DNA of 64,000 nucleotides from Roseimaritima ulvae (GTDB lineage: Bacteria; Planctomycetota; Planctomycetia; Pirellulales; Pirellulaceae). Both the position numbers and the translations under genes were made by a program. The number at the start of each line of letters is the position of its first letter. Position 1 is the first letter of the stretch. A model generated the notes under the pieces. That model searched no databases. It was not told the origin of the DNA and saw only the letters and a program-made list of their open reading frames with translations. Positions 27,838 through 47,717 of this stretch are shown in pieces. Location: the NCBI RefSeq assembly GCF_008065135.1, contig NZ_CP042914.1, forward strand, positions 6,677,404-6,741,403, given 5' to 3'.

Positions 27838-27948
27838 GAACTTGAGTCAAAATCGGATTTTTTCTAAAGTCCCTCCGCAACCGCCGTTTTTCGAGTCGAA
27901 TTCGGGAAACGCAATATCGAACAGGGAATGGTTCAAGGAGGAACCGAC

Positions 27949-29754
27949 ATGACCGTGTGGACTCTACGTGCGACGTTGCCACTGTGCGTGGCAAGCTTTC
28001 TTGCCGGCCTGTGCCTACTGCACAGCCTGCCCGCCGCGGCCCAGCAACCATCCAATGATCTGGTGGCGGTCGTCAACGCTGACCCCATCACCCGCGACCA
28101 ACTAGGCCAAGAAGCGGTCCGCCGCCACGGCGCCGAAGTGGTCGACGAAATGGTCAATCGCTACCTGATCGTGCAGGCCTGCAAAGCCAAAGGCATTCAG
28201 ATCAGCGGCCAACAGGTGCAGGACGAAGTGATCCGCATCGCTAAGAAATTTGGACTGACCACCGAAGCCTATCTGCAACTGCTGCTTGAAGAACGCGACT
28301 TCACGCCGCAACAGTACAGCAAAGACGTCGTCTGGCCGATGCTCTCGCTGCGAGCCTTGGTGGCCGACGAAGTTCAGGTCAGCGAAGCCGAAATCCGCAA
28401 AGCCATGGAAAGCCAATTTGGCGAAGCCGTCAAATGCCGCATGATCATGGTCGGCAGCCGCGCCAAAGCGGACCAGCTGCGTCAGTTAGCCGTCCAGAAG
28501 CCGCACGAATTTGGCGCCTTGGCGATGCGAGAAAGCGAAGATGAGACCAGCGCCAGCGTGCACGGCCTGATCCCGCCGATTCGCCGCCACACCGGTGACG
28601 CCGAATTTGAAAACATGGCGTTTGCCCTGAAAGATGGCGAAATCTCCAAGGTCTATCCGCTGGGTGATCAGTGGGTGATCCTGCAGTCGGTCCGCCACAT
28701 GCCCGCGTCCTACCCCGCCGAACACGCCTTACCGATGGTCCGGCAACAGATCTCCGACCGCATCGCCGACGAAAAAGTCCGTGTCGCCGCGTCCAAGCTG
28801 TTCAGCAAACTGCAGCAGGAAGCCAACGTGATCATCGTGTTGGGTGACGAAGCACAAACCAAGAAATACCCCGGAGTGGCCGCGATCATCAACGGCCAGA
28901 AGCTGACCGTCGCCACGGTCGCCGCCGAATGCATCGAACGCCATGGTGCGGCCGTGCTGGAAGGTGAAGTGAACCGCAAACTGTTGACGCAGGCTCTTCG
29001 CAAAGCCGACCGACGCGTCGAACAGGCCGACATCGATGAAGAAGTTCGCCGCGCCGCGGTCTCGTTTGGCTACGTCGACGCCCAAGGCAACGCCGACGTG
29101 GAGACTTGGATGCAGGCCATGTTAGGCGATGCCGATGCCAACGCTCGCGAACTGTACCTGCGTGATTCGGTATGGCCCACCGTGGCCCTGAAAAAACTGG
29201 TCGAAGGCCAGGTCGACGTCACGCAGGAAGACCTCCGCAAAGGCTTCGAAGCCAACTACGGACCTCGCTGCGAAATCCTGGCCTGCGTGCTGGGTGATCA
29301 ACGCACCGCACAAAAAGTCTGGGACATGGCACGTGCCAACCCGACCGACAAGTTCTTTGGCGAACTGGCTCATCAGTATTCGATCGAACCGATGAGCCAA
29401 AGCAACTTTGGCCGCGTCCCCCCGCTGGCCCGTCACAACGGCCAGGACACGCTGGAACGCGAAGCCTTCAAACTGAAACCCGGCGGTGTGGAAGCGATGA
29501 GCGGGATTATCTCGACCGGTGCCGAACGCTGGGTGATCATGCGTTGCGTGGGCTACACCGATCCGGTGGTCACCAAATTCGACGATACCGTCCGCGAAGA
29601 ACTGACTCGCACGATCTTCGAAAAGAAACAGCGTCTGGCCATGGCCGACACCATGGACAGCCTGAAGGAATCCGCCCAGATCGACAATTTCCTGGCCAAA
29701 CGCACCCAATTGGGCAGCCGGGTCCGCCAGGTTTCCAACACCGAAAAGCGTTAG
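27949..29754 (+). CDS. Secreted peptidyl-prolyl isomerase with two SurA/parvulin-like halves
   Basis: 601 residues. A good Shine-Dalgarno (AAGGAGG) precedes ATG 27949, which also starts the signal peptide (about 1-31). The protein is an internal duplication. Each half has a SurA-like N-terminal helical part (VVNADPITRDQLGQEAVRRHG... and IINGQKLTVATVAAECIERHG...) and a parvulin-like PPIase part. The matching segments are GLIPPIRRHTGDAEFENMAF in half one and GRVPPLARHNGQDTLEREAF in half two, each followed by a WVI strand. It probably acts as a periplasmic chaperone/isomerase for outer-membrane or secreted proteins. A terminator follows, so it is monocistronic. Confidence 0.9.
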   Translation: MTVWTLRATLPLCVASFLAGLCLLHSLPAAAQQPSNDLVAVVNADPITRDQLGQEAVRRHGAEVVDEMVNRYLIVQACKAKGIQISGQQVQDEVIRIAKKFGLTTEAYLQLLLEERDFTPQQYSKDVVWPMLSLRALVADEVQVSEAEIRKAMESQFGEAVKCRMIMVGSRAKADQLRQLAVQKPHEFGALAMRESEDETSASVHGLIPPIRRHTGDAEFENMAFALKDGEISKVYPLGDQWVILQSVRHMPASYPAEHALPMVRQQISDRIADEKVRVAASKLFSKLQQEANVIIVLGDEAQTKKYPGVAAIINGQKLTVATVAAECIERHGAAVLEGEVNRKLLTQALRKADRRVEQADIDEEVRRAAVSFGYVDAQGNADVETWMQAMLGDADANARELYLRDSVWPTVALKKLVEGQVDVTQEDLRKGFEANYGPRCEILACVLGDQRTAQKVWDMARANPTDKFFGELAHQYSIEPMSQSNFGRVPPLARHNGQDTLEREAFKLKPGGVEAMSGIISTGAERWVIMRCVGYTDPVVTKFDDTVREELTRTIFEKKQRLAMADTMDSLKESAQIDNFLAKRTQLGSRVRQVSNTEKR

Positions 29755-31910: not shown

Positions 31911-32885
31911 CTACTGCTGTGCCGTGACTTCACCATGTTTGACGCTGGCCAAACATTTATAGAGCGCCATGTCGATGGTTTCGGCGATAAATCGGACGCT
32001 GCCATCGGCGTTGACAAACTGAGCTCCACCGGGATGGTTGGATGCAAAGCTAATGTCGTTGAAGTTATTCGATCCGTTATAGAACGTGGAATTGATCGGG
32101 TAAGTCACGTTTTTGGTCGTGCCCGAACCACCGTTTTGGCCACGCACCCAGCTGCGATAATCATTGGTTTGACCGGGTGGCAATGAGATCGAACGTTCGG
32201 CGACCATCAGGGTGTTGGACGTCCCGTCGAGAATCGTGGCAAACTTGACACGGTGCTTGGTGGTCACGCTGCCGGGATTATCCCTGTACTGCTGCAGCGC
32301 CCCGTCGGTGGCGTAAGCTCCATTGTTGGTCGCCGCCCCCACCACGTATCGGTAGGTCGTACCGTTGTAGACGTTCAGCGAAGGATTCGCCCGACTGGAA
32401 GGCCCCATTACACCGTAGTAATGAGTGGTGTGATTGAAGGTACCATCATCGGTCCGCTCCGCACCATTGGTGGACCGGTTATCCGCGCCCGAGGGACACT
32501 TGTAGCCGGGTATCTCGTAGTTGCCCACGATGTTGTTGACTTCCGCCGTGTAGGGCTGCGTAAAGTCGTACTGTTCGTAAATCGCCTGCTGTTCGATGTT
32601 AGGCAGGATGAACACCAACCAACTGGTGCCTTTTATGTACGTCGGCCCCGACGCGCTTTTGGGCTCTGGATACACGTTTTCCTGAGCCCCGGGCGGAAAG
32701 TGCCCGTAAGTGTCATGGAAGGTGTGCAATGCCAACCCCAACTGCTTGCAGTTATTGCTGCAACTCATCCGCCTGGCCGCTTCCCGAGCCGCTTGCACGG
32801 CCGGCAACAGCAACCCCACCAATACCCCGATGATGGCAATCACCACCAACAATTCCACCAATGTGAATCCTCGCTTACGTAACAT
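31911..32885 (-). CDS. DUF1559 domain protein with prepilin-type N-terminus
   Basis: 324 residues from ATG 32885. The N-terminus carries the type IV pilin-like methylation motif (RKRGFTLVELLVVIAIIGV; cleavage after Gly) and the adjoining LLLPAVQAAREAARRMSCSNNCKQLGLALHTFHD block that defines the planctomycete DUF1559 family. The rest is a beta-rich, Asn/Gly-rich pseudopilin-like domain with the C-terminal ASNHPGGAQFVNADGSVRFI signature. These proteins occur in many copies per planctomycete genome and are presumed surface or pseudopilus components. It is first in a two-gene unit with the small lipoprotein downstream. Confidence 0.95.
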   Translation of the reverse strand: MLRKRGFTLVELLVVIAIIGVLVGLLLPAVQAAREAARRMSCSNNCKQLGLALHTFHDTYGHFPPGAQENVYPEPKSASGPTYIKGTSWLVFILPNIEQQAIYEQYDFTQPYTAEVNNIVGNYEIPGYKCPSGADNRSTNGAERTDDGTFNHTTHYYGVMGPSSRANPSLNVYNGTTYRYVVGAATNNGAYATDGALQQYRDNPGSVTTKHRVKFATILDGTSNTLMVAERSISLPPGQTNDYRSWVRGQNGGSGTTKNVTYPINSTFYNGSNNFNDISFASNHPGGAQFVNADGSVRFIAETIDMALYKCLASVKHGEVTAQQ

Positions 32886-33116
32886 CAAACCAATCTCCAA
32901 CAAAATTAAGAAAAGAAGAATAGAGAAAGTGTCTCAGTCCCCAAGGTGAACAGGAGCCCCATTGAATATAAAGTCCAGGGTCCCGCCCCCCCGCAATAGA
33001 GGAAGCGACAGGTGCCAATGTAGCGGCACACAAGGTCGACAACAACATTTTTCTCACGCTGCGGATTGGAAACCTGCACCGCCCCGGGAGGGCCCCCGTG
33101 GTGAACACGCCAGCAA
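32886..33116. other. Intergenic region upstream of the DUF1559 gene
   Basis: No gene is supported. The part next to the DUF1559 start is A-rich on the plus strand (AACAAAATTAAGAAAAGAAG), so the promoter of the minus-strand gene is expected here. The small frames crossing into the neighbouring hairpins are repeat-derived artefacts. Confidence 0.45.
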
Positions 33117-33235: not shown

Positions 33236-36200
33236 CTAGGCGAAGTACCAATGCCCCACTAGGCCATCGTCCAGATCCACATAATGCAGCGTGCCATCGG
33301 GGCCTTGCTGGATGGCAACCACCACGGCTGCGTCGGTGGCAAAGTTCTGCACGCTGATTACGTTGCCGTCGGCATCGATGTTAGCGTTGCGAACCAAACC
33401 TTGCCCCAGGTCGTTGAAGAACAAGTCGCCCTGGAATTCCTCCGGATAGACATCGGCAGTATAGAAACTGCCCAGTACGATCGCGTTGATACCGTCCGCG
33501 GCGTGATTGAGCGCAAACTGGGACGCGGTCACTTCCGCACCGCTGGCATAAAACGCCTGAGCTTCAGGAAGGTCTTGGTAGCCGCCGGTACGCAAACTTG
33601 TTCCGCTGCCGCCTTCATAGTACGGCCAGCCGAAATTGGCACCCGCAGGTCCCGCGTTGATTTCTTCCCACTGCGTATAACCCACATCGCCGATGTACAA
33701 CTGGCCAGAATCGGGATCGACGGTGATCCGGAACGGATTCCTCAAGCCGTACTGATAGACCTTCGAGCGATTGGCATCGGGATCGTCTGCGACGAAGAAC
33801 GGATTGCCCGCGACCCCGTCACCGGTCAGCGGATCGATCCGCAGGACTTTACCGGACAGGTTATCGATATCTTGTACCCGAGTCGCGCGGGGGTCCACAC
33901 GGTTGTAGCTTGCACCGTCGCCGATCGAAACAAACAGGTTACCCTCGTTATCAAAGGCCAGCGAGCCGACGGTGTGGGATTCACTGTCACTGGCGATAAA
34001 GTCCTGCAGGTTACTGCCATCGGGCAAGATTCCCGCCGGCGGTTCTTCAAAATCGACCGTACTGTTGGCGAACCCGTTGAAGTTTTCCCAGGTGCTGTTT
34101 TCACCCAACAGGATGACTTCGCTGTTCGCCACGGCGGTGGTGTAGTTGGTGGACGCGTCGGCGGTGACACGAATTAACCTTCCGGCACGATTGCCGTTTT
34201 GATCCGGGCCCGCCAAGGGATCGTCCAGGTTCTCGTAAACCTCCGGGGGATCATAAGTGAACAGCAAGTACACGTAGGGGTTGGCTTCGAATTCAGGATG
34301 CACAGCGATGTCCAACAAGCCGCGGTCGCGGGTGTCGTTCACCTGATCCCGAATGTCAATAAACGGCTCGGCTTGCAACACACCGTCACGGACGACTTTC
34401 ACCAAGCCCGACTTTTCCGCGATGTACAGGTTCTGATCGTTGTCACTCCACTCGATATCGATGGGCTGCGTCAATCCGGAAATCAACGTTTCAGAAACCA
34501 AGGTGGTGCCCGGCGTGGGCGGCAAAATGGTGCCCGGCGTATCGAGCGAAAAGTCCCAATTCAGTACGCGGTGATTGTTAAAGTAGCCCCCCGTCGCCGC
34601 GGTAAAGCCCAGGTATCCGGTGCTGCCGACCTGGGCTTGCAGGTCCAGATCCACAACCATCAAAGGCTGATCGGGCTTGTCGACCGAGCCGCTGACGTAC
34701 ACCGCTAACTTGTCCGTATTGCCGTTGTAGTCGACCCAGGCGGTGATCAGTGCCGCGTTGTTCAAATCCAGCAAGGGGACGCGGGCATCGAGGGGCGTTG
34801 CCAAATTACCGTCGACGTTGATGGCCAAGTGATTGTTGTTGATATCGCCATCATTCAAATAGGTGTCAAACTCCACGGCCACGCTATTGTCGATCCCGCT
34901 CAATCCCAATCCCCCGCCACCGCTGCCGATCGCATTCAAGCCGCGCGGATCGTTTTGAATGACGAAGCTAAACCCGTCGGCGCCCAACGACTGCTGACCG
35001 CCGTCCAGCTGAAATTGGAATTGGGTCTGGAACGAGGTGTCACTGTGAATCGGCAGCGGTTCGGTTAAGTAAGCCGCGCCCAATTGAGCCCGTAGATCGG
35101 GGGTCAGCAACAATTCGTCGCCGCTGATTGCAGCGTCACCGACCAAAGTCAATCCTTCGGCACCGCTGAAATCGGCAAAGTTGGGCAAGACCACATCGTC
35201 GTCCTGGATGGTCACGGTAGCGGTGCGAGGAGCTAACAACGTGGCGCCGCCGGTGACGTTATCAATCGCAAATCCAAACGTCTCATTGCCCTCGGCCAGC
35301 GTGTCATTCGATACCGCGACCACGACTTCACTTGCGGTCTGCCCGGATTCGAATACCAGCGTGCCACTACGAGCTTCAAAGTCTTCGCCGGAAGTGGCCG
35401 TGGCATCGATAGTGCTGTAATCCACCGTCACACGTCCGTCGCTGCCGCCGGTTCGCTGCACGGTCAGGGTCACCGTCTCCGCAGCTTCGTCTACCTCCAG
35501 CACGCTGCTGGCCAACGCGATCACGCCGGCCTGGCCTTGCCCGGCATCGTATTGGAAGTAACCGTTACCGTGCAGGTATTCGCTCTCGCGATACCCCGGC
35601 GTGATGCCGTCCGCTTCCAGGTAGGTGCCCGTGGAATACACCGTCGGGGCTTCGCTTTCATAGCTGACTCCGCCGACCACGATGCGATCGACACGGAGGT
35701 TGCGGTCGATCGTTTCGCTGAACAGGTCGTTCGTAAACGCCACCCGCACCTGATCGGCGGTGATGACGCCGTTTACCTCGGCGGTGTAAGCGACGTATTG
35801 TTCGGCTTGGTCATCGCCACCGATGTCGGTCCAGCTCCGCACGGTCGCTCCGTCGATCTGCAGTTCCATCTGTTCGGTGTTGGTGGAACCGGCCGCATAG
35901 ATCGTAATCGTGGTTTGTTCGCCGCCGGGGTCCTGACCAGGATATTGGAAGTATCCATTGCTGTGCAGCGTTTCGGATCGCCGGAACCCGGGCTGCGTGC
36001 CGTCTTCGGGTTTCCAGGTGCCGGTGGAATATACGTCGGGCGATTCGGTTTCAATGAAGGTGTCGTCGATTTGCAGCGAGTCGACGTACAGATTGCGATC
36101 GATGCCACCGTCTTCGTACAGGTCGTTGGTGAAGGCGATTTGAACGCGATCGGCGGTGATCGTTTCGGCGGCTTGATACTGATAGGTCACGAATTGCCGG

Positions 36201-37423
36201 TTGCCCGGATCGCCGCCTACGTCGTCCCAGATGCGTACCGTTTGACCATCGATCCGCAGCTCCATCGTCTCCTGCCCGGTCTCGCCGGCCGCGCGAATCT
36301 GGATCAACGAACCGCTGGGGTCAGGATCGGGCTCGGCGTACTGGAAGTAACCGTCGGCGTGGAGCACTTCGCTGAGCCGATTGCCCGGCGTCACCCCATC
36401 TTCGGGTGTCCAGGTACCGGTGGAGAGCACCGTGGGATCTTCGGTTTCAAAGGTTTGCCCATCGACGGTGATACTATCAACCCGCAGGTTACGATCGACG
36501 CCGCCGTCGACGAACAGGTCGTTGGTAAACGCCACTCGAATACGGTCGGCCGAAACGCCGTCGGCCGCTTCGTAGGTGAACGTCTGAAACTGCCGCTCGT
36601 CAAAGTCGCCACCAATGTTGTCCCAAGTCTGCACGGTGACGCCATCGATCTGCAGTTGCATTTGTTCTTCACCGGTGGCGCCGGCGGCACGAATCGAAAT
36701 CGGCAGCAGGCTGTCAAACGATTGCAGCGCCGCGTCGGCAAACGCGACACGCGAATCCACCGCGCCCAGGTGGTATTCCAATTCCCAGTCACCGCCTCGC
36801 CGGTCGTTGCCGGTACGGTCGACCGACGCCGCCACATCCGCACCGCTCAACTGAGCCAAACGGCCGACAAAGTGTTGTCCCCGGTCGCCCTGAGCGACCT
36901 CGCAGCCATACAACAGGATGTCGGCATTGGGGGCTAGCGCGGCGGCCCATTGTTCGATCCGCTGCTGTTGCTGTTGCAAACTGTGAGCATCGACGACTTG
37001 GCCGGCCAACTGCAAGCTGCCGGGCTTGCCGTGGGAAACGAGGTGCAGGGACTGAACGTTTTGGCGTCGCTGCAGCACGTCGGAAATCTGCTCGAGGCCA
37101 TCGCCGTGGGGATCCAACAGAACGACTTCGGCATCGTCGACAAGGCCCTCGGCGAGAACCTGGAAATCCGTCACAGCCGCGTCGACAAACACGATCGAGG
37201 AGGCAGTCGTGCGAGCCGCCTGCTGAGTGTCCAACCGTTCGACCTTCCCGCCCGGGACCACTTCGGCCACCTCGGCGGCGTCTCCACCAGCCACGTCGGC
37301 GACCACCGCTCCGGCATCGCCGGCGAGCATCACGCGGGGTTCCAGCTCGGCGGATTCCCAACGCATTGGCTGGCGCAGCGGAGCTTTCCGCGGTCCCCAC
37401 AGTCGTTTGATCAGTCTGGACAT
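33236..37423 (-). CDS. Giant LEPR/DUF4347 surface protein with CBM repeats, Calx-beta, lectin-like and sugar dehydrogenase domains
   Basis: 1395 residues with no classical signal peptide. Order: a basic start, then the planctomycete LEPR-xLL motif (ELEPRVMLAG, 26-35); a DUF4347 domain (about 77-224, with LHLVSHGKPGSLQLAG and ADILLYGCEVAQGDRGQ); three tandem repeats of about 120 residues (about 242-362, 373-493, 505-625) resembling Ca-dependent xylan-binding CBMs, each with RAAG-x-T..EQM-LQIDG, VAFTNDL and GYFQY; a Calx-beta repeat (about 635-735, ending TVTIQDDD); an L-type-lectin-like domain (about 740-935); and a glucose/sorbosone dehydrogenase-type beta propeller (about 955-1390, with RGLLDIAVHPEF, SIGDGASYN and GLRNPFRI). 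It is probably exported to the cell surface to bind and oxidise polysaccharide-derived sugars. It lies next to a set of export-type genes that may secrete it. Confidence 0.9.
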   Translation of the reverse strand: MSRLIKRLWGPRKAPLRQPMRWESAELEPRVMLAGDAGAVVADVAGGDAAEVAEVVPGGKVERLDTQQAARTTASSIVFVDAAVTDFQVLAEGLVDDAEVVLLDPHGDGLEQISDVLQRRQNVQSLHLVSHGKPGSLQLAGQVVDAHSLQQQQQRIEQWAAALAPNADILLYGCEVAQGDRGQHFVGRLAQLSGADVAASVDRTGNDRRGGDWELEYHLGAVDSRVAFADAALQSFDSLLPISIRAAGATGEEQMQLQIDGVTVQTWDNIGGDFDERQFQTFTYEAADGVSADRIRVAFTNDLFVDGGVDRNLRVDSITVDGQTFETEDPTVLSTGTWTPEDGVTPGNRLSEVLHADGYFQYAEPDPDPSGSLIQIRAAGETGQETMELRIDGQTVRIWDDVGGDPGNRQFVTYQYQAAETITADRVQIAFTNDLYEDGGIDRNLYVDSLQIDDTFIETESPDVYSTGTWKPEDGTQPGFRRSETLHSNGYFQYPGQDPGGEQTTITIYAAGSTNTEQMELQIDGATVRSWTDIGGDDQAEQYVAYTAEVNGVITADQVRVAFTNDLFSETIDRNLRVDRIVVGGVSYESEAPTVYSTGTYLEADGITPGYRESEYLHGNGYFQYDAGQGQAGVIALASSVLEVDEAAETVTLTVQRTGGSDGRVTVDYSTIDATATSGEDFEARSGTLVFESGQTASEVVVAVSNDTLAEGNETFGFAIDNVTGGATLLAPRTATVTIQDDDVVLPNFADFSGAEGLTLVGDAAISGDELLLTPDLRAQLGAAYLTEPLPIHSDTSFQTQFQFQLDGGQQSLGADGFSFVIQNDPRGLNAIGSGGGGLGLSGIDNSVAVEFDTYLNDGDINNNHLAINVDGNLATPLDARVPLLDLNNAALITAWVDYNGNTDKLAVYVSGSVDKPDQPLMVVDLDLQAQVGSTGYLGFTAATGGYFNNHRVLNWDFSLDTPGTILPPTPGTTLVSETLISGLTQPIDIEWSDNDQNLYIAEKSGLVKVVRDGVLQAEPFIDIRDQVNDTRDRGLLDIAVHPEFEANPYVYLLFTYDPPEVYENLDDPLAGPDQNGNRAGRLIRVTADASTNYTTAVANSEVILLGENSTWENFNGFANSTVDFEEPPAGILPDGSNLQDFIASDSESHTVGSLAFDNEGNLFVSIGDGASYNRVDPRATRVQDIDNLSGKVLRIDPLTGDGVAGNPFFVADDPDANRSKVYQYGLRNPFRITVDPDSGQLYIGDVGYTQWEEINAGPAGANFGWPYYEGGSGTSLRTGGYQDLPEAQAFYASGAEVTASQFALNHAADGINAIVLGSFYTADVYPEEFQGDLFFNDLGQGLVRNANIDADGNVISVQNFATDAAVVVAIQQGPDGTLHYVDLDDGLVGHWYFA

Positions 37424-37783
37424 CGGCTTGATCTCGATCGTTTTTCACATAGTTATATGCCCCCCACCAGTATCGACGACGATAATCCCCCCAATGGTGA
37501 AAAGCAACAAAATCAGCACATTGGGCCGCGGAGCGAAGAATCGCGGAACGAAGACTTGGCGAAATCGATCGCGTTGACTAACGTCGAACTTAGGCTCTGT
37601 CTGAACACGGCAAGAGCACCGATCTCTAAGCGATTCCTCGGTGTCCCCCGTCCACCAGATCATTGGCGCACTCCGTCTTCCAGCCCCCCAAATTTGATCG
37701 GAATGATTTGGGGGAGGGGGGACCGGTTATCTGCCAGGGCCTAGTCTTCCTGCTTTCCTGTCTCATCCGTTGTGGCTCATCCC
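37424..37783. other. Divergent intergenic region between the giant protein and the MFP gene
   Basis: About 360 bases with no convincing gene. The stretch next to the giant-protein start contains TATAACTATG on the minus strand, a possible -10-like element. A purine-rich run (GGGGGAGGGGGGA near 37709-37722) precedes the MFP gene. No dispersed repeats are present, unlike most other gaps. Both flanking promoters should be here, which would allow coordinate control. Confidence 0.45.
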
Positions 37784-38647
37784 ATGGTTTATCGATCCTG
37801 TTGTCTACTGTGGCTCTGCCTGTGGGCGACCAGCCTTCCCGTCGCTGGCGAGGATTTTCAGATCGTCGACGCCCAGGTCACGCTCGCCGGCGACATCACG
37901 ATCGCAGCAGCCACACCTGGCATCGTGGCGGACATTGCTGTGACCGAAGGGCAAAGTTTAGAACCCGATGCCTTGATCGCGCAATTGGATGACCGGCACG
38001 CTCAAGCTGAACTGCGAGCGGCCATGGAATCGCTACAGGTGGCGATTTTGGAAAGCGAAAACGATGTCGATCTGCGGTATGCCGAAATGACACTGGCGGT
38101 ACATCAAAAAGAATACGAACACAGTCAGTCGGCTAATACCCGCTTTGCCGGCAGCGTCTCGCAAAGTGAACTACGACGCCTGCAGTTGGTCGTCGACCAA
38201 GCCAAGCTGCGAATCGAACAAGCTCGCCGCGACCGCGAAATTCGACAAGCCAAAGTCGCCGAACTGCAAGCCGGCGCCGATGCCGCCCGGCAAGTCGTCG
38301 CCCAGCACACCATCCACAGCCCCACCTCCGGCGTGGTGGCCCAACGCATGGTCGATCCCGGCGAATGGGTCGCCGCGGGAGATCCCGTGGTGCGGGTGAT
38401 CGACCTGAGCCACTTCCGGATCGAAGGTTTTGTCGATCAAGCCGACGCGGCCAAGTTAACGGCTGGTATGGAGGTCCGCTTTGTTCCCCACAACGCCAGC
38501 GAAGTGGAATACCCCGGAGTGATACAGTTTGTTGCCGCGGAGCTGCATCCGGTCACCGGGCAAGCGCGTCTGTGGGCCGAAGTCGGCAACCACGACGGCA
38601 AACTGCAAGCCGGCATGCGCGGCACCTTGCACGTACAACTCCCGTAG
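37784..38647 (+). CDS. HlyD/RND-type periplasmic adaptor (membrane fusion protein)
   Basis: 287 residues from ATG 37784 (GTG 37772 possible). The signal peptide ends near PVAGED. The first lipoyl-like half is GIVADIAVTEGQSLEPDALIAQLDD (about 43-70, read in pieces), followed by a long alpha-helical hairpin (about 70-155), the second lipoyl half HSPTSGVVAQRMVDPGEWVAAGDPVVRV, and a beta-barrel. Such adaptors bridge inner-membrane pumps to TolC. A TolC-type gene lies just beyond the repeat array, in the opposite direction, and two further MFP-containing proteins follow. It has no separate N-terminal helix, so it is probably periplasmic. The stop codon TAG is part of the first family B hairpin downstream. 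Confidence 0.9.
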   Translation: MVYRSCCLLWLCLWATSLPVAGEDFQIVDAQVTLAGDITIAAATPGIVADIAVTEGQSLEPDALIAQLDDRHAQAELRAAMESLQVAILESENDVDLRYAEMTLAVHQKEYEHSQSANTRFAGSVSQSELRRLQLVVDQAKLRIEQARRDREIRQAKVAELQAGADAARQVVAQHTIHSPTSGVVAQRMVDPGEWVAAGDPVVRVIDLSHFRIEGFVDQADAAKLTAGMEVRFVPHNASEVEYPGVIQFVAAELHPVTGQARLWAEVGNHDGKLQAGMRGTLHVQLP

Positions 38648-39146
38648 CCGAAGTCGCCAGACTTTGGATCCATTCGTAGCTACCGTCGCCAGACGGTGGG
38701 CGGGTCACGCACTTCCAAACTCTGGCGAGTTCGGCTACGAGCCCGCGCGGTCACACGCTCTGGCGAGCGTAGCTACCGTCGCCAGACGGTGGTCGGGTTG
38801 CGCACTTCCAAACTCTGGCGAGTTCGGCTACGAGCCCGCGCGGTCCCACGCTATGGCGAACGTAGCTACCGTCGCCAGACGGTGGGCGAGTCGCGCACTT
38901 CCAAACTCTGGCGAGTTCGGCTACGAGGCGGTCGATCCCACGCTCTGGCGAGCGTAGCTACCGTCGCCAGACGGTGGGCGGGTCACGCACTTCCAAACTC
39001 TGGCGAGTTCGGCTACGAGGCGGTCGATCCCACGCTCTGGCGAGCGTAGCTACCGTCGCCAGACGGTGGTCGGGTTGCGCACTTCCAAACTCTGGCGAGT
39101 TCGGCTACGAGCCCGCGCGGTCCCACGCTATGGCGAACGTAGCTAC
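38643..39146. repeat. Tandem array of family B hairpins (five ~93-bp units)
   Basis: A leading forward AAGTC/GACTT hairpin (38643-38668) is followed by five tandem units starting near 38675, 38768, 38861, 38953 and 39045 (periods 93, 93, 92, 92). Each unit has one forward CCGTC/GACGG hairpin, one reverse AACTC/GAGTT hairpin and one reverse CGCTC/GAGCG hairpin, giving about 16 hairpins. Adjacent units share GTAGCTAC. Units two and five carry the variant CTATGGCGAACG, whose stem is mispaired. Two alternative spacers (CGAGCCCGCGCGGTC and CGAGGCGGTCGAT) mark which units were copied together. It fills the gap between the convergent MFP and TolC genes. The open frames across it (TSKLWRVRL type) are not genes. 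Confidence 0.95.
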
Positions 39147-39166
39147 GATGCGCCGCTACGGGGCGT

Positions 39167-40990
39167 TTACCGCGTGTGAATATCGACGCAGTAGGCGGTT
39201 TCGGCTAACCGCACGCCGCGATCACGGAGCAGACAGCCGCTGGCCAGGCTAACGTTTTTAATGGCGATCGCATAGTCGGTGCTGGCTTCGATGAAACGCT
39301 GCTGGGCTTCGATAAAATCTTCCTGCGCGTCCAGCACCAAATGCACCGTGGACTGCCCGATGTCATATTGAGCTCGAGTCGCTTGCAGACGTTGTTCGGC
39401 GGCTTGCATCCGCTGCCGCGTCAGCTGAATGCCGGCCTGCAAGACTTCCACTCGAGCTACCGCTTCGCTTAATTCGTGAGTCACCAAGCGTTGCTGGGTA
39501 TCCCAGACCGCGCGTTCGCGTTGGATTTTCAACTTGGCACTTTGCACCGCAGCGCGAGCCTGTCGTCGTCCCGCGGCCATCTGCATCTCGACACCAAACT
39601 CCCACTCTTGATGATCGAGCGAGAAAAAGTCGTCGTAGGCGCTGGCAAACCGCGGCCCATCGCCGGTCAAATCGTCACCGAAGCCGCGGAGTCGGTAGCG
39701 ACCGATCACGTCCAACTGCGGCAACAGGAAATTCTTCGCTGCCAACAACCGAGCTTCCTCTTGTTGGATGCGAATCGCCTGCCGCCGCAAATCGACTCGC
39801 GCTCCCATGGCCTCCGCCAGCATCGCTTCCCAGTCATACACCAATGGGGCGGGCGAGCCTCGATCGACCGGGCGGATCAAGACGCCATCGGTCGTGGGCA
39901 TGCCGATTAAAAACCGCAATCGACGTTCGGCATCCAGAACACCCGTTTGCCGCCGTGTGCCATTAAGCGTTTCCAGCGTCTGATAGCGGTACATCAGATA
40001 CTTGGCTTGGGCCTGCGAGACTTTGTCGGCTTCGCCTCCAGCCAAACCTTCATCCGCTTTCGCCTTGACGGCTTGCCAAGTCTGATAAGCGGCATCGCGA
40101 GCGACGCGTTTGCCTTCGTATTCGCGGTAGGCCAACTGCAGGGTCCAGTACGCGTCCTCGACGTCGCTCACAAAATCCTGCAAGGCGCGTTCGAAATCCA
40201 ACAAGCTGATCTGCGAATTCATTCTGGCGATCACAATGCCGTTGGAAAACTGAAATCCCGGTTGGGCATTGGGTCCGGCGATAGCGTTGTACTGCCGACC
40301 CGCGCCACGCAGCAGCGGTTGCCGAATCCCGACTTCCATCTGCGTCTCCCAGACGCTCGGGAACAGGTTGGCCGAGCGATTATTGTTGTCGTAGTCGATA
40401 CGCCGATCGAGCGACACCACTCCGCCGCCGGGCAACCGACGCGACAAGCCGCTCTGCATCGACAGCGTATCCTGCAACAGTTCCTGCGCTCCACCGCCCA
40501 ACACCGCGTTGTTGAACACGCGATCGTTGTTGGCCGCTGTCAGCGAACTGTTCAGCACCGTGTCAAATTCGGCCAGGGCGGCTTGCGGTCCGTAGAACGG
40601 ATCGGTTTGCTGCAGGGCGAAATCGTAGCGGGTCGTAACCGCTGAGGGCGAGTCCAACACGCGGCCGCCCAGATCACGTATCACGCGACTATCGCGGAGC
40701 GCCGTTTCGATGACTTGCTGCCGCGTCATGTCGACGAAGTCCGTCGGTTCAACGGCGGTGTTTCGCGGTCGCAACGACGGTGGCGGCGAAGCTGATTCGC
40801 CAGCCAGAAAACGCACCTGAGCGGCAGCGTTGTCCTTGGGAACCGGAGCATGCAACGGCACGGCATCCAGCGGTTGCCAGACCGAAGGAGCCGAAGGCGA
40901 ATCGTGGGAAGCGCAGCCGCAGGCCAACATCATCAGGCCCGCCAGCCATCCGATGCCAGACGTACGCGTCGGCAGTGCCACGATTTCCAT
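39167..40990 (-). CDS. TolC-family outer-membrane efflux lipoprotein
   Basis: 607 residues. The N-terminal hydrophobic segment ends in a lipobox-like ACGC (Cys about 26), as in NodT/OprM-type outer-membrane factors. The body has the long coiled-coil TolC repeat pair: a first helical block around residues 225-330 (MNSQISLLDFERALQDFVSDVEDAYWTLQLAYREYEGKR, read in pieces) and a second around 420-570 (ALRQ..IRIQQEEARLLAAKNFLLPQLDVIGRY, QLTRQRMQAAEQRLQATRAQYDIGQ). It is expected to form the outer-membrane channel for the neighbouring MFP proteins. It ends convergently with the first MFP gene and starts divergently from the GAF-MFP gene. Confidence 0.92.
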   Translation of the reverse strand: MEIVALPTRTSGIGWLAGLMMLACGCASHDSPSAPSVWQPLDAVPLHAPVPKDNAAAQVRFLAGESASPPPSLRPRNTAVEPTDFVDMTRQQVIETALRDSRVIRDLGGRVLDSPSAVTTRYDFALQQTDPFYGPQAALAEFDTVLNSSLTAANNDRVFNNAVLGGGAQELLQDTLSMQSGLSRRLPGGGVVSLDRRIDYDNNNRSANLFPSVWETQMEVGIRQPLLRGAGRQYNAIAGPNAQPGFQFSNGIVIARMNSQISLLDFERALQDFVSDVEDAYWTLQLAYREYEGKRVARDAAYQTWQAVKAKADEGLAGGEADKVSQAQAKYLMYRYQTLETLNGTRRQTGVLDAERRLRFLIGMPTTDGVLIRPVDRGSPAPLVYDWEAMLAEAMGARVDLRRQAIRIQQEEARLLAAKNFLLPQLDVIGRYRLRGFGDDLTGDGPRFASAYDDFFSLDHQEWEFGVEMQMAAGRRQARAAVQSAKLKIQRERAVWDTQQRLVTHELSEAVARVEVLQAGIQLTRQRMQAAEQRLQATRAQYDIGQSTVHLVLDAQEDFIEAQQRFIEASTDYAIAIKNVSLASGCLLRDRGVRLAETAYCVDIHTR

Positions 40991-41341
40991 CCTTGGTTCC
41001 CATCCTTTTCGCCAAGCTCTCCGGCTTGGGGTACGTTAGGCTTTTCAGCCTGACATCCTGCACTGGCGGTCCGCCTGGAACGGCCGACGTACGTTGTGGT
41101 TCGGAATCTTACCACCGCTTCCGGCAACGATTTTTGCCGGTTACTCATCGCCCCTACCACCGTCGCAATCGCTACCAGCGGACCAGAATCGACCGCGACC
41201 CGACGCGTCCGCTCCCTAACTCGATAGCTCACGGCCCCGCCAAACTAACGTGGATACGGCTATCCGACATCTATAACTGTGTTTGCTGGTTTTTGGCGTT
41301 TTTTTGTGGCTTCCCCCGGTACCTCTTCGACGGATCTTCGC
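40991..41341. other. Divergent intergenic region with a family C hairpin
   Basis: About 350 bases between the TolC-type gene and the GAF-MFP gene. A family C hairpin (GTACGTTAGGCTTTTCAGCC) lies at 41031-41054. No other gene is supported. If the GAF-MFP protein starts at GTG 41279, the gap is 63 bases shorter. Confidence 0.5.
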
Positions 41342-43333
41342 ATGCAAGCGGCGGACGAAATCCAGCACGCCGCCGGTCCGCTTAGTCTTATCGCACGGAT
41401 TGTCCGGCTGATCGACCAACCGGACTCCGCAGCCGAGCGTCTGCCGCACGCCTGCCAAGAGATCGCCGCAGCCACCGCCGCGACGCTGGTAGCGCTCCGC
41501 GAAACGCCCTCGCAAAGCCCCCATCTGGCGGGCACCGAAGCGACCGCGGGCGACGATTCGGATGGACTCGCCAAACTCGAATCCCTGTTTGCCAGCCTCA
41601 CCGCACAACCCTCCGCGCGCTCCGTCGATTTCGCACCGCACGGCTCGCGACGAGTGCTCGGCTGCCGATCGGCGGACGGGCGATTGTCGCTGCTGGTCGT
41701 GCTCGACGCGCCACCGGCTCTGGCCAGCGAAGCCGCTTGGCTTCGCGGCTTGGAACTGGTGCTAAATCAACTTACCGCGGCGAATCGGTCCCTCGTGGAA
41801 CCATCGTCACTGGCCACGTTCGACTTCAGCGACTTCCATCGCTCACTGGACATCCGGCAAGTTTGTTCGGCCATCGCCAACGACACTCGGCTGCTGCTGC
41901 AGGTGGACCGCGTGAGCGTTCTGCTGCGGCGCGGCAGACGCTTTAAAACGCTTGCCGTGAGCGGTGTTTCCAAGGTCCATCGACGTTCCAACCTGATCCG
42001 GACGTTGGAACAACTGGGCCGAGTGATCGCGGCCACCGGAGAAACCTTCTCTCACCCGAGCGACGATGAACTGCCTCCGCAAATCCAAGCCGCCTGGGAC
42101 GACTATGTGGATCAGTCGCTGGTCGATCGACTGCGCATCGTGCCCCTGTTTGCACCCCGCGACGATTCCCAGCAGCAACCGAGCGATCAACCGGAAACGG
42201 ACGACCGCGGCGTTCAGGCACATCGCCGCCCAACCCCGTTGTTGGGTCTGTTGGTGATCGAACAGTTGTTCGACGATCGCTCGGCGGATGACCACCGTTC
42301 GGCGCCAATCCGCGACCACCGTGCGGTGGTCCGTCACGCGGCCGTCGCCATCGAAAATGCGGAACGGCATCGCCGCATTTTTCTGCTGCCGCTGTGGAGC
42401 TTGTTGGGTTCGGCTGTGGACCGCAGTCGGCGGATCTGGACCGCGCTGGTGCTGCTGGTGCTGGCGAGCGTCGTGGCCGCACTAACATTCATTCAAGTGG
42501 ATCATTACGTCGTCGCCACCGGCACGCTGCAACCGCAACAGCGGCAACACGTGTATGCACCGCACGACGGAGTGGTTCAAACCGTACATGTGCAGCACGG
42601 CCAACGGGTGGGCGTCGAGGCGCCGTTGGTGACCCTGCAAAGTGCCGAACTGGAACGTCAAACGGAACAGATCCTCGGCCAGATCCAAACCGTCGGCCGA
42701 CGTCTGAGTGCCGTCCGTTCGACTCGCCGCTCCCGCACGCTTTCGGCCAACAACACCGACTCACCGTTCGATTCGTTGGCCGGCGAGGAACAGCAACTGC
42801 AAGCGGAATTGGCTAGCTTGGAAACCCAACACGCATTATTAAAACGACAGCTGCAACAGTTGCAGATTCGCAGCCCGCTGGCCGGGCAGATCGTCAGCTG
42901 GGACCTGCACCAACGCATCGGTTCGCGTCCGGTTTCGCGAGGACACGAACTGTTGACCATCGCGGATATCGATGGCCCCTGGGTCCTGGAAATGGAGTTG
43001 GCTGATCAGGATATCGGCACCGTGCGTCGTGCTCAGCAACACGGCCGCACGGAATTGCCACTGCAATACGCCTTGGCGACCGCCCCCGAACAGCTGTACC
43101 CGGCGTCACTGTCGCGGGTTGCCGAAGCATCGCACCGCAACGCAGACGGCCAGACCGTGGTCGAATTAGAAGCCGCCCTCGCCGGTGATGCCGCCCATGC
43201 GTTGCGGGTGGGCGCCAGGGTGCGAGCGAAAATCTATTGCGGCCGTCGTTCCGCCGGAGCGTCCTGGTTCAGCGACGTCGCACGGGCGTTTCGCAAACAT
43301 GTGCTGTTTCATTTCCAGCGAACCAAACCATGA
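41342..43333 (+). CDS. GAF-like sensor / membrane fusion protein (HlyD) chimera
   Basis: 663 residues from ATG 41342; GTG 41279 would add 21 residues. The N-terminal half (to about 360) is cytoplasmic and contains a GAF-like region: DFHRSLDIRQVCSAIANDTRLLLQVDRVSVLL, then a VDRLRIVPLFAPR strand and a LLGLLVIEQLF strand. A single membrane helix (about 365-385, IWTALVLLVLASVVAAL) follows. The C-terminal half is a HlyD adaptor: lipoyl half VYAPHDGVVQTVHVQHGQRVG, a coiled-coil hairpin (ESNG-free, Gln/Leu-rich), the second half QIRSPLAGQIVSWDLHQRIG, and a beta-barrel. A sensor may thus control an export adaptor across the membrane. The stop overlaps the next start in ATGA. Confidence 0.85.
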   Translation: MQAADEIQHAAGPLSLIARIVRLIDQPDSAAERLPHACQEIAAATAATLVALRETPSQSPHLAGTEATAGDDSDGLAKLESLFASLTAQPSARSVDFAPHGSRRVLGCRSADGRLSLLVVLDAPPALASEAAWLRGLELVLNQLTAANRSLVEPSSLATFDFSDFHRSLDIRQVCSAIANDTRLLLQVDRVSVLLRRGRRFKTLAVSGVSKVHRRSNLIRTLEQLGRVIAATGETFSHPSDDELPPQIQAAWDDYVDQSLVDRLRIVPLFAPRDDSQQQPSDQPETDDRGVQAHRRPTPLLGLLVIEQLFDDRSADDHRSAPIRDHRAVVRHAAVAIENAERHRRIFLLPLWSLLGSAVDRSRRIWTALVLLVLASVVAALTFIQVDHYVVATGTLQPQQRQHVYAPHDGVVQTVHVQHGQRVGVEAPLVTLQSAELERQTEQILGQIQTVGRRLSAVRSTRRSRTLSANNTDSPFDSLAGEEQQLQAELASLETQHALLKRQLQQLQIRSPLAGQIVSWDLHQRIGSRPVSRGHELLTIADIDGPWVLEMELADQDIGTVRRAQQHGRTELPLQYALATAPEQLYPASLSRVAEASHRNADGQTVVELEAALAGDAAHALRVGARVRAKIYCGRRSAGASWFSDVARAFRKHVLFHFQRTKP

Positions 43334-45561
43334 ACGCGAGCTCACGTCCTGGCCGGTTGGTTGGTCGCCAACCATTGAACCTGAGGATGCGCAGCGACCT
43401 GGTGTCGCAAACCATCCACTCGTCCAGTGGCGACCGAGTGACAGTAAAAGATCCGGTCGCGCTGAAATATCACAGTCTTCGCGACGACGAATGGTTCGTC
43501 TTGCAACTGTTGCGTTCACCGATTGATCTGGAATCGATTCGTGCCGCCTACCAGCGACGTTTCGCACCGCGCCGAGTCAGCTTGCCACAAATCCAAGCCT
43601 TGCTGTTCCGCTTGCATCGCAGCGAATTGCTGATTTCCCAAACGCCTGGTCAAGCCGCCCCGCAGGCTCGACGCCGTGGTCGGCAACGGCAGCAACAATG
43701 GCTGGGGCGATTGCAAAGCGTATTGTTCTTGCGGTTTCCGGGCTTCGATCCGGCACCCTGGCTGGACCGCTTGTATCCGGCAGTGCAGTGGCTGCTGCGG
43801 CCCGGCATGTTAGCCCTTGCCGCGGTGCTGGCCGTATTGGCGGCCGGTCTGTTCGCCGCTCATTACGAAACATTTCTGGCGGAACTGCCAAATTTGCAAC
43901 AATGGATCCAGCCGCGGGAATTGTTTTTGTTAGCCGTGGTGTTAGGCGCCACCAAGGTCTGCCACGAACTCGGACACGCGATCGTCTGCAAGCACCTGGG
44001 CGGCGAATGCCACGAGATCGGCCCGATGCTGTTGGTGTTCACTCCCGCCCTGTACTGCGACACCTCGGATTCGTGGATGTTGCCGGGGCGAATGCAACGC
44101 GCCGCGGTGGGCGCCGCGGGGATGGGCGTCGAATGGATGCTGGCGTCGTTGGCCACGTTTGTCTGGTGGTATACCCATCCCGGCATCGTGCATCACGCGG
44201 CCATGAATGTGATGCTGGTTTGCTCGATCAGCACGCTGCTATTTAATGGCAACCCGCTGCTCCGTTACGACGGCTATTACATCCTTTCGGACCTGGCCGA
44301 CACGCCCAATTTAGCGCAACGCAGTCGCGATTACTTTTACCGTCTGACGGCTCGTTGGCGGCTTGGCATTCGGCAGCCTGGCTTGTCGCCACCCTCGCGG
44401 CGGGCGGCGTTTTGGTGGCTGGTTTATCAACTGGCCGCGACCGCGTATCGCTGGTCGATCACGCTGGTCATCCTGTGGTTTGTCACCCAGTTTCTAAAAC
44501 CTTACGGCTTGCAGTCCATCGGCTGGTCCCTGTGTTTGTTCACGGTGGCAATGATGATCGCGATGCCGCTGTGGCGATCGATTCAATTCATCCGTACTCC
44601 TGGGAATACCAGTAAGATGCGACGCGGAAATCTACTTATCACCGCGGCTGTATCCGTGGGATTGATAGGCCTGTGCTTTTTGCCCGTGACCCATCATGTG
44701 GTCGCCGAGGCACAGATCATTCCCCACCAAGCCACGCCGGTGTATGTCACGACCAGCGGTTTTCGCTCTCGCAATCCCACCGCCGCATCGCTCCCCTTCG
44801 GACGCCGAGTGCAGCAGGGCGACACGCTGCTGAACCTCCGTGATCCCGAACTGGAACTGCAGTGGTTGCAAGCTCAGCAGCGGCTCGAATCGCAACGACT
44901 GCTGCTGGAACAACTGCGTCGCACTCAGACCTACGATCCCCAATCGGCCGCTCAAATTCCATTTGCCGAGGCCGCTTTGCAAGACCTGCGGCAACGCGCC
45001 TCCAAACTGACCGCCCAGCGCAAAGCTCTACTGATCACCGCCCCGGTCGACGGCGTGTTGGTGCGTCCCGAACCGCTGCAGGAGCCGCAGGAGGGGACAG
45101 CGCTGGCGCGGGTCACCGGCTGGGCCGGCGAAGCGATTAACGCCGGTAGTTTTCTGGAGACCGGCATCCAGCTGGGCACTCTCGCCGCGCCCGGTCGCTA
45201 CGACGCTTGGTTGAACGTTGCCCAAGCCGACATCGAATACGTCCAAGTCGGCCAACCCGTGCTGCTGCAACTGGACGCCTTCACCGACCGCCGGGTCCAG
45301 GGGCGAGTGGTAGAAATCGCCGGCCAAGACCTTTCGCAACAGAGCGACACGGGCCCCACCCCGTCAAGCGAGGGCGGGGCAGGGCAGGGCAGGGCGGCGG
45401 CAGCGAATCAGCTCGGCGACTATGCGGTGCGGGTGCAACTGGAACGCAATGGCCTGCCGCTGACGTATTACGAACGCGGCCGAGCCAAGATCTTGGTCGA
45501 TACCCATCCGCTGGCAAAGCGTCTGTATCGCGCTGCGGCGGCGTTATTTCGGTTCCAGTAG
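43330..45561 (+). CDS. PqqD-like / M50 site-2 protease / HlyD membrane fusion protein
   Basis: 743 residues; ATG 43330 overlaps the previous stop. Residues about 33-104 resemble a PqqD/RRE-type winged helix (VTVKDPVALKYHSLRDDEWFVLQLL, then LESIRAAYQRRF and LLFRLHRSELL). The M50 site-2 protease core follows: a hydrophobic segment (about 158-180), zinc motif HELGH (212-216), the FTPALYCDTSDSW loop, and NPLLRYDGYY with likely third ligand Asp314. More helices (about 370-425, 438-460) lead to a HlyD part (about 465-743): VYVTTSGF..., Gln/Leu-rich coiled coil, ITAPVDGVLVRPEPLQEPQEG, and a barrel. It could bind a substrate N-terminus, cleave it in the membrane and pass it to TolC. A Gly-rich insertion (SSEGGAGQGRAAAA) sits near residue 685. 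Confidence 0.88.
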   Translation: MNASSRPGRLVGRQPLNLRMRSDLVSQTIHSSSGDRVTVKDPVALKYHSLRDDEWFVLQLLRSPIDLESIRAAYQRRFAPRRVSLPQIQALLFRLHRSELLISQTPGQAAPQARRRGRQRQQQWLGRLQSVLFLRFPGFDPAPWLDRLYPAVQWLLRPGMLALAAVLAVLAAGLFAAHYETFLAELPNLQQWIQPRELFLLAVVLGATKVCHELGHAIVCKHLGGECHEIGPMLLVFTPALYCDTSDSWMLPGRMQRAAVGAAGMGVEWMLASLATFVWWYTHPGIVHHAAMNVMLVCSISTLLFNGNPLLRYDGYYILSDLADTPNLAQRSRDYFYRLTARWRLGIRQPGLSPPSRRAAFWWLVYQLAATAYRWSITLVILWFVTQFLKPYGLQSIGWSLCLFTVAMMIAMPLWRSIQFIRTPGNTSKMRRGNLLITAAVSVGLIGLCFLPVTHHVVAEAQIIPHQATPVYVTTSGFRSRNPTAASLPFGRRVQQGDTLLNLRDPELELQWLQAQQRLESQRLLLEQLRRTQTYDPQSAAQIPFAEAALQDLRQRASKLTAQRKALLITAPVDGVLVRPEPLQEPQEGTALARVTGWAGEAINAGSFLETGIQLGTLAAPGRYDAWLNVAQADIEYVQVGQPVLLQLDAFTDRRVQGRVVEIAGQDLSQQSDTGPTPSSEGGAGQGRAAAANQLGDYAVRVQLERNGLPLTYYERGRAKILVDTHPLAKRLYRAAAALFRFQ

Positions 45562-45623: not shown

Positions 45624-46504
<881 letters not shown>

Positions 46505-46508
<4 letters not shown>

Positions 46509-47533
46509 GAAGTCGCCGCCTGTTCGGCTGCGGCCGCGTCCGCGTCGCGTTGGTCTTGTCCGACGGCGTGGAACAGATCCGCAATCACATCTTCCAGCGG
46601 CGGGTCTTCCACCGACACGTCCTCCACGGTATGGTCGCGCAAAGCCTGCGCCAGCCGCGAGGGCACCTCGGCTCGCGGGATGCGAATCCGGGCCTTGGGC
46701 CAGTTGGTGTCCAGGACTTCGCCGATCAACCCCAGGTTGCTGGGCTGGACGTCTTCGGCGAACTGCAGCGTGACGATTTTGCTACCCGAAAACTTGTCGA
46801 CGATTCCCGACAACGAACCGTCGTATTGGATGCGGCCGTCGGCGATGATCACCACGCGTTTGCACAGCGCCGCGACGTCTTTCATGTAGTGGCTGGTCAG
46901 CAGGATCGTGATCTTGCGTTTCTCTTGATAGTACTTAAGAAACTGCTGGATGTTGTGCTGGGCGATGACGTCCAAGCCGATCGTGGGCTCGTCCAAAAAC
47001 AGCACGTCGGGACTGTGCAGCAGGGCCGCCATCAATTCCATCTTCATGCGTTCGCCCAGCGACAATTCGCGAACCGGCTGGCCCAGCAACCGAGCCACGT
47101 CCAGCAGATCGGCCAGCTCCTGCAGGCGTTGTTTGAATTCCTGGGGATCGATGCCGTAGATCTGTTGATGCAGCCGATAGGATTCCTGCGCCGGCAGGTC
47201 CCACCACAATTGATTTTTCTGCCCCATCACCAGGGCAAACCGGCGGCGGTAGTCGTGTTTGCGTTCCCAGGGCACATAGCCCATCACGGTGGCCGAACCG
47301 CTGGTCGGATTGATCACGCCGGACAGCAGTTTCAGCGTGGTCGTTTTGCCCGCGCCGTTGGGGCCCAAAAAGGCGACAAATTCGCCCTGTTCCACCGTCA
47401 GGTCGATGCCTCGCACCGCCTGCACCTCGCGGTATTCGCGATGAAACAGCCCGCGGACGCTGTCCATTAACCCCTCGCGTTTTTGGTACACGCGATACGA
47501 TTTGGTTAAATCGGAAACCTCAATGATGGGCAT
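46505..47533 (-). CDS. ABC transporter ATP-binding protein
   Basis: 342 residues from ATG 47533. Walker A GPNGAGKTT, Q-loop region VMGQKNQLWWDLPAQES, signature LSLGERMKMEL, Walker B DVLFLDEPTIGLD and the H-loop LLTSHYMKD are all in order. This is the COG4586-type exporter ATPase, with the extra N-terminal KREGLMDSVRGLFHREYREVQAV insert that marks it. The C-terminal 90 residues form a regulatory-like extension ending in an Ala/Asp-rich tail. It is translated with the permease that overlaps it, and may export a drug, lipid or polysaccharide. It converges on the M50-MFP gene; no link to that system is proven. Confidence 0.93.
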
Positions 47534-47717
47534 TGCGGACAGCTTTACGGCAGGCGTCAAATGAAATGGACAGGGCGCACGCGCGGATCGTCAGTTCGAC
47601 ACGGAACCTCGATTGTAAACCCAAGAGCAAGGATTCCAAGCGGACCGGGTTGTACAGTATTCTAGGCCCCTCGCGCCCCGCTTGATGGCCGAGCCCCGCC
47701 CTGTAGATGGATTGTAA

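Follow-up and report, generated by a model that had tools for sequence, protein, structure and literature searches.

The genes at positions 33236-45561 of the window (the whole 64-kb stretch of Roseimaritima ulvae contig NZ_CP042914.1 that was analysed) probably make up one copy of a conserved export module together with its adjoining cargo, a giant surface protein of the LEPR/DUF4347 kind, and the export mechanism proposed below belongs to that probable reading. The pairing of such giants with the module is well supported; the mechanism is only suggested. The machinery has been known since 2015; what appears to be new is the cargo, its N-terminal leader and the reading of one domain of the machinery as an RRE. 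Assigning a cargo class to the module, namely giants that carry an LExR leader at the N-terminus and in many cases DUF4347 after it, makes a testable system of what was recorded as secretion-related with no known cargo. It offers a candidate path by which some very large proteins of bacteria may be exported, and suggests functions for the LEPR-XLL leader motif, for DUF4347 and for the RRE-M50-MFP fusion.

The original prediction placed beside a giant gene those of an MFP (periplasmic adaptor), of a TolC-type protein and of two MFP fusions, one GAF-like/MFP and the other PqqD-like/M50/MFP, and a check of the open reading frames (ORFs) of the window confirms all five at the positions given beforehand. 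The giant (33236-37423, minus strand) has 1395 residues. The leader motif LEPRVML occupies residues 27-33 (37325-37345, minus strand; LEPR itself is residues 27-30), read at the N-terminus; the LEPR-XLL model NF012209 scores it on either side of its cut-off of 17 bits, with 14.4 in a protein scan and 19.8 in a whole-genome search. DUF4347 follows at residues 77-240 (36704-37195, minus strand; E 8.8e-60 as the best whole-protein value), and the protein also matches the profiles of CBM60 (in three stretches), Calx-beta, legume-type lectin and glucose/sorbosone dehydrogenase. As to the lack of a classical signal peptide that the original prediction claims, a hydropathy scan separates poorly, with 8/26 adaptor and channel controls over its cut-off as against 2/37 giants. 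MFP1 (37784-38647, plus strand) is an adaptor of the RND_mfp type (TIGR01730, 110.7 bits, cut-off 94.9). The TolC-family outer-membrane factor, or OEP (39167-40990, minus strand; PF02321, 1.3e-29), is a probable lipoprotein, its lipobox having been judged by eye. The GAF-like/transmembrane/MFP fusion (41342-43333, plus strand) matches HlyD_3 at 1.8e-12, has a transmembrane segment recognized by eye and a GAF match that is weak (16.9 bits against a cut-off of 22.4, E 0.0093). The start codon of the PqqD-like/M50/MFP fusion (43330-45561, plus strand; HlyD_3 at 4.2e-9), referred to below as M50-MFP, overlaps the stop codon of that gene.

What M50-MFP might do is best approached through its predicted structure and its conserved residues. 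An alignment of 39 M50-MFP sequences served also as input for AlphaFold2, which models the whole fusion (pLDDT 83.7, pTM 0.65) with an alpha/beta domain at the N-terminus, then a helical core, then a MacA/MexA-like adaptor with a helical hairpin (44677-45549, plus strand; Foldseek 1.5e-12 to Escherichia coli MacA). The N-terminal domain (approximately residues 1-105; 43330-43644, plus strand) models as a leader-binding fold of the RRE type, with a three-stranded sheet and three helices: when the first 128 residues are modelled alone (pLDDT 80.9), the best Foldseek matches are TbiB1-leader complexes, a lasso B1-leader complex and PqqD of M. extorquens, the top match having E 9.3e-4 and TM 0.67 on the target and being the only one below E 1e-3. 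The PqqD profile PF05402 matches 18/39 aligned members at E<=0.1 and the M50 profile matches 39/39 at the same threshold. All 39 sequences share the HExxH zinc site and the second-site Asp without variation, and both are present in 11/11 of a wider set. In the window protein the zinc site is HELGH, residues 212-216 (43963-43977, plus strand), with H212, E213 and H216 invariant; the second is NPLLRYDG, residues 308-315 (44251-44274, plus strand), with N308, P309, D314 and G315 invariant, which we take to be the second metal-ligand motif of site-2 proteases. An RRE fold and an invariant HExxH/Asp set fit leader binding and leader cleavage. The PqqD-like leader recognition of the original prediction thus gains a fold, while recognition, cleavage and transport keep the standing of suggestions.

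The same properties raise the question of whether the module handles small peptides instead, with the giants adjoining it for other reasons. RRE folds are typical of enzymes that act on ribosomally synthesized and post-translationally modified peptides (RiPPs), and among named families the M50 core comes closest to NF041824, a metalloprotease of daptide maturation (168 bits, under the cut-off of 300). Daptide and epipeptide (YydH/LiaK, NF058609) systems share with the fusion an RRE-type domain, an M50 core and the logic of a leader peptide. The window protein differs from them in falling under the curated cut-offs (33.5 bits against 225 for NF058609), in being joined to an adaptor and in having a proposed cargo of at least a thousand residues. 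Elsewhere in the genome a 110-residue, Gly/Ser/Lys-rich ORF with the motif LERLEDRIAPS (3836775-3837107, minus strand) lies upstream of an M50-MFP gene at 3.83 Mb; on the other side is an OEP gene. That motif is itself of the LEDR type, so that the product of this ORF may be cargo in the same way as the giants, only small, and giant genes stand beside 13/14 inspected plasmid modules; a function confined to small RiPP-like peptides is therefore very unlikely.

If giants are cargo, they and M50-MFP should be found in the same genomes, which is the test that the original prediction set for itself beforehand and which it passes. The survey was made in what, going by named relatives, should be Planctomycetota. 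Its statistics are uncorrected for phylogeny, and ignoring shared ancestry makes the P values smaller than they ought to be. Of 118 genomes sampled first, 31 have M50-MFP, 11 DUF4347 (7 over 60 bits) and 13 LEPR leaders; M50-MFP occurs in 12/13 LEPR genomes (hypergeometric 1.8e-7) and in 6/7 of those with DUF4347 over 60 bits (0.0013). In an overlapping sample of 393 genomes (tallied by hand, with M50-MFP called at E<=1e-60, two M50 candidates scored per genome and incomplete positions), M50-MFP is found in 167, DUF4347 in 32 and LEPR in 83. M50-MFP accompanies 30/32 DUF4347 genomes, where 14 are expected, and 80/83 LEPR genomes, where 35 are expected; counted by genus, the latter figure is 67/70. 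The two DUF4347 genomes that lack M50-MFP have the weakest DUF4347 matches, 60.5 and 51 bits. A second search of the five exception genomes, at low stringency, brings up matches to the adaptor domain only, apart from a weak M50-core match in one of them (G228).

The genes also keep company as neighbours. Fifty DUF4347 loci (no stretch longer than 20 kb apart from the 64-kb window; weak matches L120 and L227 and several short contigs included; the regions of weak matches L121 and L122 and the weak matches of G001 and G070 not counted) yield M50-MFP at 17, SecA2 at 11, one of these in the genome of the window, and one or both at 20. Addition of an M50 gene at the edge of one stretch (L115) and of one further locus (L225) brings M50-MFP to 19 and M50-MFP and/or SecA2 to 22/51. 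The recurrent arrangements are a giant divergent from OEP-SecA2-MFP1-MFP-M50MFP (L193, L196, L202, L207, L217 and 31-49 kb of the same genome), the same without SecA (L114, L117, L118, L119, L199, L216), and sets of the GAF type like that of the window (L206, and L215 with SecA). Could the giant be an unrelated surface protein that adjoins an efflux-type module by chance? Neither MFP nor OEP genes are rare, and the LExR pattern is not enriched around 20 M50-MFP genes of other genomes (3/20 regions and 3/20 controls). Yet under assumed gene densities M50-MFP would be expected at only about 1-2 of the 50 loci; neither it nor SecA2 turns up in any of 20 control regions (round coordinates, hand-picked in 12 M50-MFP genomes other than those of strong DUF4347 loci); and in Pseudomonadota giant and module form contiguous operons. 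Chance neighbourhood is already disfavoured and may be regarded as highly improbable.

The Pseudomonadota loci are on plasmids, where 122 records match DUF4347 and 79 match M50-MFP. The inspection covered 14 M50-MFP loci, 13 of them chosen by hand for diversity from 60 of the 79 records that were listed. Some were chosen in the knowledge that DUF4347 is on the same plasmid, and that of Alisedimentitalea was reached through a SecA match and is also among the M50-MFP records. Thirteen of the 14 adjoin a giant gene, of approximately 2,300 to 16,200 residues; in Magnetospirillum a gene for a 493-residue ELWxxDGT protein takes the place of the giant. The order giant-TolC-MFP1-MFP-M50MFP is seen in Burkholderia anthina, Azospirillum brasilense (which, with this operon, would be a harmless host for tests), Niveispirillum, Kosakonia, Variovorax and Cupriavidus; in Pontibrevibacter, Methylosinus and Mesorhizobium the giant and a DUF3467 gene are followed by adaptors, M50MFP and SecA. 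Twelve of the 13 N-termini that were read (the E. coli giant was left out) carry the leader as LExR or, in two, as IEPR/MEPR; in Alisedimentitalea it lies upstream of the annotated start. An unannotated giant of Indioceanicola was looked at downstream on account of its leader, and OEP, MFP1 and M50MFP were found there. Small genes for DUF3467 proteins (approximately 93-106 residues) lie between giant and adaptor genes in four alphaproteobacterial loci (L134, L135, L136, L130). Of the M50-MFP records listed, 18 are Escherichia plasmids and 8 are Citrobacter plasmids; on the one examined, pECTOK-001_2 (NZ_AP018397), TolC-MFP-MFP-M50MFP follows an Ig-like giant, with DUF4347 annotated as a separate neighbouring gene.

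These observations suggest the following sequence of events. The RRE-fold domain of M50-MFP would recognize the giant by binding its N-terminal LExR leader. SecA2 would drive the chain over the inner membrane, either through the transmembrane core of the M50 protein or through SecYEG, and at the window locus would presumably be supplied in trans from elsewhere in the genome, which is our best guess. The M50 site would remove the leader, and the three adaptor modules with the TolC-type protein would pass the chain across the envelope. DUF4347, by virtue of a His/Cys pair like that of clan CD, may then cut itself.

Much of this apparatus has been described. Kamneva et al. 2015 (PMC4452313), in the abstract and sections 16-18, report conserved loci in Planctomycetes and Proteobacteria with a secondary SecA_DEAD, M50-HlyD, GAF-HlyD, HlyD and sometimes OEP proteins and no ABC transporter, note that the genes of some secondary SecA_DEAD proteins stand away from those of the partner proteins, suggest SecA_DEAD as a possible ATPase and the M50 protein as a possible pore in the membrane, and call the broader role of the module completely unknown; these same parts of the paper mention no giant cargo, LEPR leader or RRE domain. 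The window shares with the loci so described M50-HlyD, GAF-HlyD, a further HlyD and an OEP (the GAF and M50 matches being sub-threshold) and differs in having no SecA_DEAD; since that secondary SecA is missing, it is better called a variant without SecA than a complete representative. Among the open-licence PMC papers listed by literature searches there is no other on the module, nor, going by titles and abstracts, one on its giant cargo or on LEPR leaders, and no experiment came to light.

The proposed route also invites comparison with known ways of exporting large proteins. Type I secretion of giant adhesins such as ArtA and LapA, going by the parts of the ArtA paper (PMC9430717) that bear on it, likewise combines an adaptor with a TolC-family channel, a giant repeat-rich cargo and N-terminal processing. 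The window has the adaptor and the channel but no HlyB/PCAT-type ABC transporter in the locus, its adaptor is fused to an M50 membrane protease, and its signal would be N-terminal where that of the giant type I adhesins is C-terminal. ArtA itself does not belong to this system; nor, judging from portions of the respective papers, do the DDxP proteins (PMC7730722) or the IncHI Big/RSP proteins, whose export is ascribed to a type IV system (PMC6764697). In Gram-positive bacteria, an accessory Sec pathway uses a second SecA, SecA2, for large surface proteins. The module under discussion differs from it in having adaptors, M50 and TolC. A separate kind of secretion system is conceivable, and is put forward tentatively, as something short of probable: RiPP-style leader recognition would be applied to proteins of up to approximately 16,000 residues, a single RRE-M50-adaptor polypeptide would read and cut the leader and couple an inner-membrane gate to TolC, and SecA2 would be the motor instead of an ABC pump, all of this being common to Planctomycetota and Pseudomonadota and carried also by plasmids.

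Where the motor is concerned, the original prediction noted that the block holds no SecA-like or PCAT-type ABC pump. This holds: tblastn at E<=1 finds no trace of SecA in the 64-kb window, and the neighbouring ABC genes (45624-47560, minus strand) are, by profile scans, an ABC-2/DrrAB-like pair and not a type I pump. It does not hold for the module at large, with SecA2 beside DUF4347 giants at 11/50 loci; absence of the motor is therefore a feature of some loci, that of the window included. The genome has three SecA_DEAD genes, all outside the window. One, at 42.5 kb of the contig, sits in a second locus, OEP-SecA-MFP1-MFP-M50MFP, directly beside a LEDR/DUF4347 giant of 2843 residues; the surroundings of that giant (15.7-49 kb) have M50-MFP/MFP/OEP sets on both flanks, one of them with SecA2. 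Another SecA_DEAD gene (7887809-7889008, minus strand, in a 729-residue frame) has no recognizable module genes within the surrounding 33 kb.

Besides the uncorrected kinship of the surveyed genomes and the SecA-less state of the window, several observations weigh against the giant being the cargo of the module. The M50 match of the window fusion is sub-threshold (18.6 bits, E 0.0012, cut-off 27.2), the protein does not match PF05402 at E<=0.1, and M50 structures are absent from the best 50 Foldseek matches listed for the modelled fusion; the M50 label is backed by the 39 aligned members, and the PqqD-like label by 18 of them and by the predicted fold. Two genomes (G087 and G388) have LEPR matches, and a low-stringency search finds no M50 core in them. 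Around the M50-MFP genes of other genomes (modules of the GAF type), as given above, LExR is no commoner than in controls. In Qingshengfaniella, a forward test fails: there are a leader and a giant, but no module within approximately 9-13 kb. At 29/51 DUF4347 loci neither M50-MFP nor SecA2 lies in the examined stretch. Nor is the genome of the window an exception. It encodes DUF4347 in five proteins and M50-MFP in six (one further, weak match at 406 kb is not counted), and only two of the giants, that of the window and one at 39 kb, are within 10 kb of a fusion. Because the other three have no module nearby, "dedicated", as the original prediction called the system, is a loose description. As a whole that prediction is partly borne out, with the genes as neighbours at 22/51 loci and in contiguous operons in Pseudomonadota. 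Two of the fusions (at 2.96 and 2.00 Mb) are in GAF-MFP/MFP1/M50MFP operons, with no DUF4347 giant or OEP in the stretches examined. A simple interpretation is that in some cases one module exports more than one cargo, each encoded at an unlinked site.

The many giants without a module in reach can be read differently: the giant might cross by Sec, or by a classical type I system whose genes lie elsewhere, and M50-MFP only trim it or retain it at the surface, somewhat as LapG and LapD act on LapA. The M50 residues are conserved as in a processing enzyme; Phaeobacter, Halotia and Gloeothece encode DUF4347 proteins that lack the leader and are flanked by no annotated module genes; and one planctomycete genome (G029, locus L120) encodes a DUF4347-like protein (60.5 bits) with no leader and, by eye, a Sec-like hydrophobic start, with no M50 core found. 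However, adaptors, an outer-membrane channel and, at 11/50 loci, SecA go beyond the needs of a trimming enzyme, and LssB, the one type I ABC model searched against the genome, scores 322 bits at best, under its cut-off of 693. Passage by Sec or type I secretion with M50-MFP in a trimming or retaining part only is for these reasons considered unlikely, and export through the module remains the preferred reading.

Self-processing by DUF4347, the last step of that export, is suggested by its sequence. One His and one Cys are invariant in 17/17 bacterial sequences, in SHG- and YGC-like settings, which would befit a putative self-cleaving cysteine peptidase of clan CD (C80-like). Peptidase_C80 matches 5/17 members at E<=1 (best 1.6e-4), and its best score of 22.4 bits stays below the cut-off of 23.8, so that the His/Cys pair is there and a profile match over the cut-off is not. 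Among solved structures, nearly the whole DUF4347 profile aligns with 11xu_A1, an epithelial cell-transforming sequence 2 oncogene-like protein (E 6.4e-7), over a stretch that has neither the His nor the Cys; going by the alignment, this looks like a true relative that lacks both. PDB entry 9qpe, chain G, which is named a DUF4347 domain-containing protein, matches at E 0.00045. Matches to de novo TIM-barrel structures were discounted, as they depend on a single short segment that is repeated.

Two other genes near the giant may be mentioned. A DUF1559 pseudopilin-like gene with H-X9-DG-CTERM (31911-32903, minus strand) adjoins it directly, and a few genes away (27928-29754, plus strand) lies the gene for a 608-residue SurA/PpiC-like rotamase in which two copies of the unit are discernible by eye.

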